From positions 1 to 37,876 of IMG/VR virus record IMGVR_UViG_3300028388_003946: a DNA stretch of 37,876 nucleotides; one strand, given 5' to 3'. Under the pieces are notes generated by a model. The model made no database searches and was not told where the DNA came from. It was given only the letters and a program-made list of their open reading frames with translations. The translations under genes were made by a program, and so were the position numbers. Origin of the DNA: a virus. Each line of letters opens with the position of its first letter. Positions within the stretch are counted from its first letter, which is position 1. Shown here in pieces: positions 18,794-27,468 of the stretch.

Positions 18794-20002
18794 ATGACAT
18801 CACCAAAAGATTATTTTGAAAAGAACAAATATGTTTATTTAACAAATGCTATTGATCAGAATGCTTGCAAAGAGCTTACACAATATATGTTTAAGCTCAA
18901 AGAGGAAGGAAAGCTTACACAAGACGATCAGTGTCCGTTGTCATGGTCGATCTATGGTGATCCAGTTTTAGAGCATATTCAAGATCAGCTTCTTAATGGC
19001 TTTTCTCAAGCAGCGGGTAAAGATCTAATTCCCACGTATACGTATGCTAGGATATACGAAACTGGTGAAGAATTAAAGAAGCACTCTGACAGGCCTTCAT
19101 GCGAAATTTCTGCAACAATGACTGTTGGGTTTGATCCAGACTCTCAGATATGGCCAATCTTTTTCAGAGAAAAAGAATCAGATCCTGGATTTCCAGTTGT
19201 CATTGAAGCTGGCGACGCTGTGCTGTATCGCGGAACAGAGTTAGAACATTGGAGACCTGTTTACAAAGGGAAGTGGCAAGTACAGGTATTTTTCCATTAT
19301 GTAGATGCTGACGGGCCGCATAAAGAGTGGGCGCACGACAAAAGAAGATCGACAGACCACGATACACAAGTTGACTCTAAAAACTCTTATCTCTTAAATC
19401 CGATTAGCGACGGTGACTTTCCGTTATATTGTGTGTATAATGATTCAAAGCATCCAGAAAAAATGTTCACAAAAGAACAATGCGAAAAGATTGTTTCTCT
19501 TGCCAGTGAAAGATACGCTACTCCAGCTACCGTCGGTGGATCAGTACTTAACACACCAGTTTATAACAAAAACATTCGAGAGGTAGAAGTCTACGATATA
19601 CAATTAAGTCAAGAAACTGAGTGGATTTATCAAGAGATTGCAAGCAGAGTATCTTTTGCTAATAAAAAATATTATAATTTCGATCTGACTGGTATTTTAC
19701 ACAGCTTACAACTTCTTCACTACAAATCAAATGATCAAGGGCATTATGACTGGCATATGGACTGCGGTAGTGGCGAAAGCGCTACAAGAAAGCTCAGCCT
19801 TTCTATTGAACTTTCAGACGAAAAAGATTATACTGGTGGAGATCTTGAGGTACATATCGGTGGAGATATTATAAATACATCTAAAGGACAAGGTGTAGTT
19901 CACATGTTTCCAAGCTTTTGCCCCCATAGAGTAACTCCGGTTACATACGGAGAAAGATGGGCTTTAGTTGTGTGGGTACACGGCCCGAACAGGTTTAGGT
20001 AG
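18794..20002 (+). CDS. Tandem two-domain 2-oxoglutarate/Fe(II) dioxygenase (prolyl-hydroxylase-like)
   Basis: 402 residues carrying two separate double-stranded beta-helix domains. Domain 1 (about 1-180) has the Fe(II) triad His97-x-Asp99 (KKHSDRP) and His152 (ELEHWRP). Domain 2 (about 210-402) has His321-x-Asp323 (YDWHMD) and His378, with Arg388 ten residues later in the GERWALVVW strand to bind 2-oxoglutarate. Domain 2 is the more typical PKHD/prolyl-4-hydroxylase-like unit. These enzymes hydroxylate protein side chains or small molecules using O2 and 2-oxoglutarate and release succinate and CO2. Both triads look intact. It sits among fibre genes, four of them collagen-like, so phage fibres are a natural candidate substrate; that link is inference. 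Nucleotide, host-protein or glycan substrates remain possible. Confidence 0.8.
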   Translation: MTSPKDYFEKNKYVYLTNAIDQNACKELTQYMFKLKEEGKLTQDDQCPLSWSIYGDPVLEHIQDQLLNGFSQAAGKDLIPTYTYARIYETGEELKKHSDRPSCEISATMTVGFDPDSQIWPIFFREKESDPGFPVVIEAGDAVLYRGTELEHWRPVYKGKWQVQVFFHYVDADGPHKEWAHDKRRSTDHDTQVDSKNSYLLNPISDGDFPLYCVYNDSKHPEKMFTKEQCEKIVSLASERYATPATVGGSVLNTPVYNKNIREVEVYDIQLSQETEWIYQEIASRVSFANKKYYNFDLTGILHSLQLLHYKSNDQGHYDWHMDCGSGESATRKLSLSIELSDEKDYTGGDLEVHIGGDIINTSKGQGVVHMFPSFCPHRVTPVTYGERWALVVWVHGPNRFR

Positions 20003-23796: not shown

Positions 23797-23825
23797 TTTA
23801 CATTTTATCTTACTTGATATATAAT
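23797..23825 (+). promoter_or_regulatory. Sigma70-like promoter for the sugar/bilin operon
   Basis: TTTACA at 23797-23802 and a perfect TATAAT at 23820-23825 are separated by exactly 17 bases, the optimal spacing. The site lies in the 60-base gap before the operon. A near-match to the late octamer (TATAAATC, one mismatch) overlaps the preceding stop at 23787. The operon may therefore be read by host polymerase early as well as late. Confidence 0.6.
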
Positions 23826-23851: not shown

Positions 23852-24808
23852 ATGCACGTATATAATGGTGAAAGAAACACAGTGTTTCTTTTGAGTGGTG
23901 GAGCTGGACGAATCGTTACAGCAATTCCTGCACTTGAAAAATATCATCGATTAAATCCAGACGATGACTTTAAAGTTCTTATCTACGCTTGGGAAGAGCT
24001 TTACTGGAATCATCCAATTCTTCAAGAAAGAACCTTTAGCGCTAATCAGAAAGGTATCTTTGAGCTAATCATTAAGTCTCATAATCTTGTACAGCCAGAG
24101 CCGTATCACCGTTGGACATATTACAATCAAGAAAAATCTCTTGTAGAAGCTTTTGACGAAGAAATTAATAACACTGACGATCACTCTGATTTAGAAAAGC
24201 CAAATTTGTATTTGCATTCTAACGAAGTGATGGATGCGCAAAATTTTCTTACTAACTTACGTACAGAATTTAAACGAGAAAAAATTGTTGTCATTCAACC
24301 ATTTGGACAAGGTGGTAATATTGTTAACGAGCGCTTTGTTGATAATACGCAGAGATCTTTACGTAGAAGAATCTATCTAGATATTATCGAAGAGATGCCC
24401 GAAGATGTTGGTTTCTTATATTTCGGGCCGCGAAACTTTTTATCACAAGCTGATAAAACAAGTCTCGTTCCTCAAAATGATCTCAATCTAAGAGCTTGGA
24501 TGTCACTCATTAACGAAGCAGATTTCTTTGTTGGAGTTGATTCTGTGGGACAACACATAGCTCGAGCCTTTGATAAAAAAGGTTTGGTTGTAATGGGATC
24601 AACATTTGAAAAAAATGTTTCATACGAAGACTATGAAAACTTTACATTCTATCGCAATAATCGAGTAAAGACTAAATATAGTCCGATTCGAATCGGTGGA
24701 ATGGATGGTGAAATGGCAGATCGTCTAAATGAAGAAGTAATGAAATTTAATGAGACAGAGGTTCAAGAGATGAAAGAGATTATATTGAATGGTGTCAAAG
24801 ACTCTTAA
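23852..24808 (+). CDS. GT9-like glycosyltransferase (heptosyltransferase family)
   Basis: 318 residues with a GT-B two-domain plan. The N-terminal loop LLSGGAGRIVTAIPALEKY (about 13-31) corresponds to the GGIGD-x-ATP acceptor-side motif of ADP-heptose:LPS heptosyltransferases. In the C-terminal half, VVIQPFGQGG (near 145) and ADFFVGVDSVGQHIARAF (about 229-246) correspond to the GVDSG-x-HxA nucleotide-sugar site. An AGGGAA ribosome site precedes the ATG. The 3' end overlaps the heme oxygenase start by 20 bases. The last gene of the operon has an RfaE-like nucleotidyltransferase domain, which makes ADP-heptose in bacteria, so donor and transferase could be paired. The acceptor is unknown: phage fibre, host LPS or another glycan. 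Confidence 0.75.
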   Translation: MHVYNGERNTVFLLSGGAGRIVTAIPALEKYHRLNPDDDFKVLIYAWEELYWNHPILQERTFSANQKGIFELIIKSHNLVQPEPYHRWTYYNQEKSLVEAFDEEINNTDDHSDLEKPNLYLHSNEVMDAQNFLTNLRTEFKREKIVVIQPFGQGGNIVNERFVDNTQRSLRRRIYLDIIEEMPEDVGFLYFGPRNFLSQADKTSLVPQNDLNLRAWMSLINEADFFVGVDSVGQHIARAFDKKGLVVMGSTFEKNVSYEDYENFTFYRNNRVKTKYSPIRIGGMDGEMADRLNEEVMKFNETEVQEMKEIILNGVKDS

Positions 24809-25328
24809 AGAATATACAAAAGAAGTTCACACCGCAGCTGAGAAAACTGAGCTGTCAAAAGCAATGTTGTCTGGTGAGATCACCGACAAGCAGTGGGCTT
24901 ATGTGCTATATCAAAAGATGGACATCGCGATTGCAATCGAAAAAAAGATTTTTTTACCAGAAAATATCTCGATGGTTAGATCTATATCGAAAGATGCTTC
25001 TCACTATTTTGACACTTACGACTATAAAATATTTCCCAGTACAAAAATATACGCAGAGCGTATCGAACAAAGTTCTTTATTTGTTGTAGATGCTGATTTA
25101 TATGTCAACTATCTTGGTGACTTATACGGCGGACGATATATCTTCAGAGCTTTGAAACAAGAGCATAAATCGCATTTAGACTTAGACAATAGCGAAGAAA
25201 GAATTGACTTTATTCGTAATAAGATTAAAGGTCGAGATGAAGAGCTAAAAGATCAGTCATTAAAAGCTTTTCAATCTGTAAAGCAAATTTATGAAGAAAT
25301 ATTCGAGCAAACTAGAACTGATCTCTGA
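24789..25328 (+). CDS. Heme oxygenase
   Basis: 179 residues, all-helical. The start LKEYTKEVHTAAEKTEL carries the conserved proximal heme-ligand His (His14 in VHTAAE). YVNYLGDLYGGRYI at 105-118 matches the distal-helix signature YLGDLSGG, with Asp111 at the position of the catalytic Asp and a Tyr replacing the usual Ser. Heme oxygenases convert heme to biliverdin, CO and Fe(II) using O2 and reductant. At 179 residues it is shorter than cellular enzymes of about 210-240. It overlaps the glycosyltransferase by 20 bases and the bilin reductase by 38 bases, strongly suggesting coupled expression. Phage heme oxygenases are known from marine cyanophages (ho1). Family assignment is solid; activity is untested. 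Confidence 0.85.
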   Translation: MVSKTLKEYTKEVHTAAEKTELSKAMLSGEITDKQWAYVLYQKMDIAIAIEKKIFLPENISMVRSISKDASHYFDTYDYKIFPSTKIYAERIEQSSLFVVDADLYVNYLGDLYGGRYIFRALKQEHKSHLDLDNSEERIDFIRNKIKGRDEELKDQSLKAFQSVKQIYEEIFEQTRTDL

Positions 25329-25881
25329 TCAAATCTACGAGCTCTTAGAGAATAATAATAAAATACCAGTCGAAGACTTTGGATGGGAGAACCACGTGTG
25401 GCAATCCCAGATTTTTGCATGGGCGCATTTAGAAAAATTTTGCACAGACAAAGTCTCTGTTCTTCACTGTGTCGTAATGCCTCATAAGAACAGCTCAGCG
25501 CCGATCTATGGTTTTGACGTTATTGAGTTATCTGGGCAACTCACCGGAATGTTTTTAGATCTTACTCCAGTTGATGGCCGTACGTTTGATGTTCCAGTTG
25601 TAGGTCAAGCAAGACCTGTACCTGACTGGGCTGACTTTTTTAGCTCAAACTTTTTATGTTGTAAGCCAACAGAAAATGAGATACAATCTGGTGTAGAACT
25701 ACTTCGAAGTTATTTACCTACACTTCCTTCAGCATCGGATCACGATTATTCTTTTCAACAACAAAAATATATCAATGGTCAACGCAAAAATCCTCAAACA
25801 TTTAAGATGTTAAAATCTCATATTGGTGAGGCTAGATCAAAACAATTTATAGAAGAGATTCTTTTTCCAGACATCGTGTAA
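25291..25881 (+). CDS. pcyX: Ferredoxin-dependent bilin reductase (PcyX/PcyA-like)
   Basis: 196 residues. The core VLHCVVMPHKNSSAPIYGFD followed by LDLTPV matches the FDBR pattern VLHxVxxP...PIFGxDxV...DLSPV. His59 and Asp76 are 17 residues apart, the same spacing as the catalytic His88 and Asp105 of PcyA; PebS-type enzymes carry Asn at the His position. FDBRs reduce biliverdin, the product of the upstream heme oxygenase, with electrons from ferredoxin. The phage enzymes PebS and PcyX make phycoerythrobilin by a four-electron reduction. I lean to PcyX because of the PcyA-like residues and phage context, but the subfamily needs a tree. The ATG at 25291 overlaps the heme oxygenase gene by 38 bases. 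The protein is shorter than PcyA (about 240 residues). Confidence 0.8.
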   Translation: MKKYSSKLELISDQIYELLENNNKIPVEDFGWENHVWQSQIFAWAHLEKFCTDKVSVLHCVVMPHKNSSAPIYGFDVIELSGQLTGMFLDLTPVDGRTFDVPVVGQARPVPDWADFFSSNFLCCKPTENEIQSGVELLRSYLPTLPSASDHDYSFQQQKYINGQRKNPQTFKMLKSHIGEARSKQFIEEILFPDIV

Positions 25882-25894
25882 ATAAGGAAATACT

Positions 25895-26662
25895 ATGAAT
25901 ATCGTGATTGTATCAGGTGGATTTGACCCGCTGCATTCTGGGCATCTTCGCTATTTTCAAGAAGCTAAAGAACTTGGCGATCGCCTTATAGTCGGAGTGA
26001 ATAGCGATGCGTGGCTTACACGTAAAAAGGGTAGACCTTTCATGCCGATTAGTGAACGAGCTGAAATAATCAAAGCATTAGAAGTGGTAGATGCCGTCGT
26101 AGCATTTGATGACGATTACGATTTAGACAATAGTTGCAAAAAATTTGTAGAAGATACTTGCTATAACTATGAAGAAGACGAAGTCATATTTGCTAATGGT
26201 GGAGATAGAGATTCGTGCAATATACCTGAAATGGATATCAAAGCTCAAAATCTTTCGTTTGCATTTGGTGTAGGTGGAGAAGATAAAAAAAATTCAAGCT
26301 CTTGGATTTTAAAAGAATGGAAAAACCCAGTTGTTACACGCCAATGGGGGTCTTACACTGTCTTAGACGAAAATGGAACGTGGCGCGTCAAAGAGCTTTC
26401 GTTTGAAGTCGGAAAAGCTTTAAGTGACCAGCGTCATTTTCAAAGAAGCGAACATTGGCATGTTGTAAAAGGAAAAATTCGTATGGAGCTAGAATATCAG
26501 AACGGAAAAGTAGAAAGCGTCATATTACCTTCTGGCACAAGCATAGACATTCCGGTGAATACTTGGCACAAAGCAACAAATGTCGGGAATGAAGATGCTA
26601 AAGTAATTGAGGTGTGGCAAGGAAGCCAATTGTTAGAAGAAGATATTGAAAGAAGATCATAA
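25895..26662 (+). CDS. Nucleotidyltransferase (RfaE/TagD-like) fused to a mannose-6-phosphate isomerase-type cupin
   Basis: 255 residues, two domains. Residues 1-140 are a cytidylyltransferase-like fold: GGFDPLHSGH at 8-17 contains the HxGH motif, ISERAEI at 52-58 the second signature (ISxR), and ANGGDR at 100-105 a nucleotide-binding loop. This family activates heptose, glycerol or similar phosphates. Residues ~145-250 are a cupin of the type II mannose-6-phosphate isomerase/ManC C-terminal class, with metal-ligand candidates His181, His187 and His189 (RSEHWHVVKG) and His225 (NTWHKATN). The domain order joins sugar activation with isomerase-like chemistry. The gene closes the operon, 13 bases after the bilin reductase, with AAGGA before the ATG. 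It probably supplies an NDP-sugar to the GT9 gene; the exact sugar is unknown. Confidence 0.75.
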   Translation: MNIVIVSGGFDPLHSGHLRYFQEAKELGDRLIVGVNSDAWLTRKKGRPFMPISERAEIIKALEVVDAVVAFDDDYDLDNSCKKFVEDTCYNYEEDEVIFANGGDRDSCNIPEMDIKAQNLSFAFGVGGEDKKNSSSWILKEWKNPVVTRQWGSYTVLDENGTWRVKELSFEVGKALSDQRHFQRSEHWHVVKGKIRMELEYQNGKVESVILPSGTSIDIPVNTWHKATNVGNEDAKVIEVWQGSQLLEEDIERRS

Positions 26663-26683
26663 CATTTTCTCACAATGTTTTTT
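26661..26683 (+). terminator. Weak intrinsic terminator of the accessory operon
   Basis: AACATT (26661-26666) pairs with AATGTT (26674-26679) around a seven-base loop and is followed by a T run. The stem is short and AT-rich and overlaps the stop codon. Its position between the accessory operon and the gp13 promoter supports a modest terminator. Confidence 0.4.
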
Positions 26684-26690
26684 ATAAATA
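26683..26690 (+). promoter_or_regulatory. T4-type late promoter before gp13
   Basis: Exact TATAAATA in the gap upstream of the neck gene, 26 bases from its ATG, directly after the hairpin T run. An AGGAG-type ribosome site follows. Confidence 0.8.
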
Positions 26691-26715: not shown

Positions 26716-27468
26716 ATGGCTGTTAATAGCAGAGACCAATTAATCGATTATTGCAAGAGAAAGCTCGGCGATCCTGTTATTGAAATCAACGTAGATTATC
26801 AGCAGTTTGAAGATCGAGTAGATGATGCTATTCAGTATTATCAAGAATATCATTCCGATGCCACAGTAAAAACTTATTTGAAGCACTTAGTAACAGAAGA
26901 TGATGTTACTAACGAATACATTCCGTTAAGTCAAGATATTATATTTGTCAGTAAGCTTTTTCCTCTCGCTTCTAATTTTAATCAAGGCCGTAACTTTTTT
27001 GATATCAAATACCAAATGATGTTAAATGACATGGCTGATCTTGTGAGCTTTGCGGGTGACCTAGCTTATTATGAGCAAATGCAACAGTACCTGTCATTGC
27101 TTGATATGAAATTAAACGGGCATCCTCAAGTTCAGTTTTCTCGTAGACAAAATCGACTTTACGTTTTTGGTGATTTTGCTGATGACGACATTAATGCTGG
27201 AGATTATCTTATAGCAGAAGTGTATCAGACAGTAGATCCAGAAACGCATACTTCTGTCTATGACGACATGTGGTTGAAAGAATATACAACCGCTCTGATC
27301 AAACAGCAGTGGGGAATGAACTTAATAAAGTTTGAAGGTATGCAATTGCCTGGTGGTGTCATGTTGAATGGCCGGCAGTTGTACGACGACGCAACTTCTG
27401 ATATAGAGAGATTAAGAGAAGTAATTCGCCTTGAGCACGAAATGCCTGTTGACTTTTTTGTTGGATAA
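26716..27468 (+). CDS. gp13: Neck protein gp13
   Basis: 250 residues. The N-terminal helix SRDQLIDYCKRKLGDPVIEI and following DDAIQYYQEYH are characteristic of T4-like gp13. The C-terminal part contains WLKEYTTALIKQQWGMNLIKF and GVMLNGRQLYDDA, conserved in marine T4-like neck proteins. gp13 and gp14 form the neck that seals the DNA-filled head and joins it to the tail. It is the first gene of the conserved block, reading straight into gp14 with four bases between them, under the late promoter at 26683. Length is somewhat below T4 gp13 (about 309). Confidence 0.92.
   Translation: MAVNSRDQLIDYCKRKLGDPVIEINVDYQQFEDRVDDAIQYYQEYHSDATVKTYLKHLVTEDDVTNEYIPLSQDIIFVSKLFPLASNFNQGRNFFDIKYQMMLNDMADLVSFAGDLAYYEQMQQYLSLLDMKLNGHPQVQFSRRQNRLYVFGDFADDDINAGDYLIAEVYQTVDPETHTSVYDDMWLKEYTTALIKQQWGMNLIKFEGMQLPGGVMLNGRQLYDDATSDIERLREVIRLEHEMPVDFFVG

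Follow-up and report, generated by a model that had tools for sequence, protein, structure and literature searches.

The stretch of viral DNA analyzed here, hereafter the window (IMG/VR record IMGVR_UViG_3300028388_003946, positions 1 to 37,876; 37,876 nt, one strand), carries an overlapping gene pair that is a real, divergent form of the known cassette of heme oxygenase (HO) and ferredoxin-dependent bilin reductase (FDBR). Judging from sequences and structural models, the pair probably encodes a two-enzyme bilin pathway with phycocyanobilin (PCB) as the most likely product. HO would open heme to release biliverdin IX-alpha, iron and CO, and the compact PcyA-type FDBR would then reduce biliverdin, most likely to PCB, using electrons supplied by ferredoxin. 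Both folds, the main catalytic residues, the pairing and the gene order are supported by sequence and model. HO-FDBR cassettes were already known from aquatic phages (PMC11480375 and earlier work cited there).

The HO gene (24789..25328, plus strand; 179 aa) and the FDBR gene (25291..25881, plus strand; 196 aa) share 38 bases of reading frame (25291..25328, plus strand), exactly as a preliminary description of this DNA had stated. The 3′ end of the upstream gene, which is glycosyltransferase-9-like (23852..24808, plus strand; PF01075 barely above cut-off; phrog_8954, E 3e-81), overlaps the start of HO by 20 bases, and the same neighbor is found in the two closest relatives, L002 and L003. Directly after the cassette lies a gene for a cytidylyltransferase-like and cupin protein (25895..26662, plus strand; PF01467, PF01050), a neighbor whose link to bilins would be hypothetical. 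It is followed by TATAAATA, which by sequence match resembles a T4 late promoter (26683..26690, plus strand); this element sits 3′ of the cassette and directly 5′ of the neck gene, a position kept in L002 (3977) and L003 (8174). The neck or head-tail adaptor gene itself (26716..27468, plus strand; phrog_211, E 6e-40) marks the insertion slot, which is the same in the pelagiphage Mosig. A sigma-70-like promoter candidate at 23797-23825 (11/12) was rejected, being absent from L002 and L003, with a site count in the scan not above that of shuffled sequences. Recent acquisition of the cassette was likewise considered on base composition and set aside: its GC and GC3 equal those of the phage and thus give no sign of it. 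A 2OG-Fe(II) oxygenase gene occurs at 18794-20002 of the window, and in Mosig the cassette adjoins a ferrochelatase gene as well as several genes for 2OG-Fe(II) oxygenases.

The first protein belongs to the HO family by its profile score (PF01126, 39.9 bits against a curated Pfam cut-off of 23; E 5.5e-10), its HO-1 matches, its proximal histidine and its distal GD..GG helix. The VHTAAE and YLGDLYGG motifs reported earlier are both present: the former contains H14, which aligns with H25 of human HO-1, the proximal ligand position, and the relevant residues further include Y105, G110-D111 and G114-G115. The AlphaFold model (pLDDT 96.2) has the HO-1 fold, and the protein is predicted to convert heme to biliverdin. 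The closest HO relatives (L002:2889-3419 and L003:7095-7622) read YLADLYGG and YLADFYGG, with Ala at the first glycine of the distal motif, where the window has Gly; in human HO-1, mutation at this glycine of the GD motif is damaging. In the HO of L013, L016, L020, L025 and L092, the distal GD reads GW or GY (YLGWLYGG, YLGYLYGG and similar); the Asp of this motif matters for oxygen activation in human HO-1.

The second protein matches the FDBR profile well above the curated cut-off (PF05996, 70.3 bits against 31; E 2.5e-19). Its E48, H59 and D76 align with Glu76, His88 and Asp105 of PcyA, which bears out the His59 and Asp76 named in the preliminary description. An alignment of 54 FDBRs shows no variation at the His and Asp, and the Glu48 site is occupied by E in 29, D in 19, Q in five and S in one. 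The glutamate is PcyA-specific and needed for 18-vinyl reduction (PMC10151467), while the Asp55 found at this position in PcyX is PcyX-specific (PMC11480375). The protein thus has the residue set of PcyA and lacks the Asp55 of PcyX. Identity to any characterized FDBR is only ~22-29% and sizeable loops are absent; even so, the AlphaFold model (pLDDT 96.7) superimposes on the PcyA fold over 196 residues (Z 23.4, rmsd 2.2) and on PcyX with Z 18.9 across 164 aligned residues. Despite its small size, the protein is predicted to have the complete alpha/beta/alpha fold of PcyA, and it would reduce biliverdin in a ferredoxin-dependent manner. Plant-type ferredoxin was found neither in the window nor in its nearest relatives (among the phages searched, only Mosig had one), and a host ferredoxin is therefore assumed as electron donor.

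Two maximum-likelihood trees were built, the second without the long outgroup and the cyanophage rows because the tree program had warned of long branches, and the placement of the window FDBR was the same in both. It falls in a six-member clade (98/96 and 99/97 in the two trees) nested in a lineage that unites phage FDBRs with the PcyA of alphaproteobacteria (98/98; 100/99). Both trees exclude it from the PcyX clade (100/100; 98/99). It is also excluded from the clade of cyanobacterial and cyanophage PcyA, from which the 98/98 and 100/99 branches separate it, and two other Synechococcus WH7803 FDBRs, treated as PebA and PebB, branch off at 100/98; PebS was not among the tree sequences. The deeper branching order of the phage FDBR groups is not settled by these trees. 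From the equivalent of His74 to the C-terminal LF, the core measures 147-149 residues in the six-member clade and 154-180 in all other full-length FDBRs of the comparison, the shorter rows L194 and L209 having been set aside as incomplete matches. The alignment places most of the lost residues ahead of the R..PDWA motif and ahead of the final helices. The window FDBR is the shortest version among those compared, on its own branch. Elsewhere in the data set, the FDBR on a Nonlabens xiamenensis contig (L174) is nearly the same protein as the one in cyanophage P-TIM40, a hint that this flavobacterial assembly contains cyanophage sequence.

Among known systems, the AX-lineage PcyA of alphaproteobacteria (PMC10151467) shares the tree lineage and the Glu/His/Asp set of the window protein but is ~33% identical to it, and its core has 164-167 residues where that of the window protein has 147. 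The PcyA proteins of cyanobacteria and cyanophages have the same fold and three catalytic residues, yet they form a separate clade at 22-29% identity, and Synechocystis PcyA (248 aa) is ~50 residues longer. The HemO and PcyA* of the freshwater phage CB_2, which is thought not to infect cyanobacteria, compare by published description as another phage HO with an FDBR lacking Asp55; there, the HO is active and the FDBR makes PCB (PMC11480375). CB_2 differs in having alaS, which was found neither in the window nor in its near relatives, and a three-gene cassette including alaS was rejected for the window's group on this ground. The gene was found only in two other records, L110 and L122, where it is encoded away from the cassette and, in L122, in a frame with one TGA. 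Both records (L110:5195-6576 and L122:5896-7249) have a single HO followed by tandem FDBRs, the first with Asp (PcyX-type) and the second with Glu (PcyA-type).

Close relatives in IMG/VR are few: L002 and L003 (71-72%), L010 and L011 (55%), L012 (52%) and L004 (50%, best segment). Phage FDBRs as such are common, since two wider profile scans gave 559 and at least 592 viral stretches with an FDBR relative. HO lay within 600 bases at 148 of the 157 viral FDBR loci examined in IMG/VR, and the distances of the two proteins are correlated (r 0.74 over 22 loci, reached in 0 of 2000 permutations), to which shared phage ancestry contributes. The pair is not a chance arrangement, because the relatives at ~71% identity, L002 and L003, retain HO and FDBR in identical order and place; a pseudogene or frameshift artefact was dismissed, both frames being open in the relatives. 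Codon position 3 differs from the relatives about half the time and positions 1 and 2 are ~80% identical; dS is saturated between them, and hence no dN/dS is claimed. Among the exceptions to the pairing, one compact FDBR (L012:10004-10588) stands on a 38 kb contig on which HO was not found anywhere. At L035 and many other PcyX-type loci, Hsp20-like and ClpS-like genes often precede the cassette, and a DnaK-like gene lies close by, as judged from sequence.

As the preliminary description held, the cassette lies in a T4-like structural region, surrounded by neck, terminase, sheath, tube and portal genes, and the window gives no sign of a cyanobacterial host. The nearest named phage, C48C1 (no host given), matches at 68% in portal and 73% in terminase, followed by Mosig (SAR11), Melnitz (Methylophilales) and cyanophages at about 44-54%. 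A psbA-type gene (Photo_RC) was found neither in the window nor in three relatives of 141-147 kb or C48C1, the cyanophage control P-RSM4 giving a strong match, and the PHY domain of phytochromes was absent from the window and from every related phage record searched. With neither type of gene in the window or its near-complete relatives, nothing indicates a cyanobacterial host: the gene content argues against a cyanophage and names no host. A terminase search of 385 genomes from the class of one MAG, which is assigned to Rickettsiales and bears a fragment of PcyX type, gave no match, an empty result that weighs little, and AG-345-O18, the best glycosyltransferase match, was dropped as a host clue for want of a terminase or portal match.

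That the phage nonetheless infects cyanobacteria and makes the bilin for their phycobilisomes is highly improbable. Its structural genes are T4-like (Kyanoviridae-like), its terminase and portal are about 44-53% identical to cyanophage proteins, and cyanophages carry ho1 and pcyA; against this count the position of the FDBR outside their PcyA clade, the missing psbA and the identity of the nearest named relative, C48C1. A divergent PcyX making phycoerythrobilin (PEB), the reading raised in the preliminary description, is unlikely. The hemO-pcyX cassette of Mosig (PcyX_EBK42635, PDB 5OWG) resembles that of the window in its overlapping HO and FDBR genes just upstream of a T4-like neck gene. The GW.N, IYGFD and TG.F motifs are common to the window FDBR and PcyX, and Mosig and the sibling phages L275, L287 and L290 hold PcyX-type proteins at the same site. 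However, the Mosig protein, very close to the solved PcyX in the alignment, carries Asp55 at the Glu48 position, is 25% identical to the window FDBR and ~30 residues longer, and belongs to the strongly supported clade that excludes it. Of the mixed 'PcyX/PcyA-like' label first given to the reductase, then, the PcyX half falls with the trees and Glu48, and the PcyA half stands for the residue set but not for a grouping with cyanobacterial PcyA. We also consider improbable a product that is neither PCB nor PEB, such as phytochromobilin or a two-electron product of a pocket remodeled by deletions. The FDBR core is below that of every other full-length FDBR compared, and in L004, a member of its clade, Gln replaces the Glu, which means that the product may vary; on the other hand, the His, Asp and Glu of PcyA are all retained and the model spans the complete fold. 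PCB rather than PEB is expected because published work ties the glutamate equivalent to Glu48 to PcyA and PCB, and residues, tree position and the CB_2 precedent all point to PCB as the probable product.

The purpose of the pathway is the weakest step of the explanation. We lean towards heme breakdown with release of iron, the FDBR pulling biliverdin off HO, since the FDBR types in one slot vary. Among sibling phages of the same lineage (portal 69-78%), L275, L287 and L290 have HO and a PcyX-type FDBR with Asp at the site upstream of the neck gene; in L223, L239, L254, L270, L281 and others, the slot region is present with no FDBR on the record, and several further sibling records stop before the slot and were set aside as uninformative. 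That the sibling slot either lacks a cassette or is filled by a PcyX-type one suggests that the exact bilin is not decisive. The strict retention of an FDBR, in turn, favors a function for the bilin as such and argues against a pure iron role. The main alternative, possible rather than probable, is that the bilin is supplied as chromophore to a host phytochrome or bilin-binding globin, through which the phage would steer host light signaling. The PcyA of phage CB_2 has been shown in E. coli to supply a functional phytochrome (PMC11480375), and two of the alphaproteobacteria with the nearest bacterial FDBRs found also encode PHY-domain proteins; the lack of a PHY domain in the phage records and the differing FDBR types among siblings weigh against it.

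In the open-access literature, we found no description of the compact clade with PcyA residues, nor any mention that this slot is occupied in sibling phages by a PcyX-type cassette. Tentatively, the clade may represent a separate family of minimal FDBRs, carried by non-cyanobacterial phages, with PCB or some other bilin as product; among siblings it would be swapped in one slot with PEB-making PcyX, the bilin being tuned to host or light climate. A 196-residue reductase with the residues of PcyA, yet far from known PcyA, tests the minimal fold and the residues that set the product. Sibling phages whose shared slot contains either type of cassette, PcyA-like or PcyX-type, or lacks one altogether form a natural comparison set for the role of the bilin. 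Bilin synthesis by apparently non-cyanobacterial phages has been called enigmatic (PMC11480375), and the present cassette bears on why such phages make bilins.
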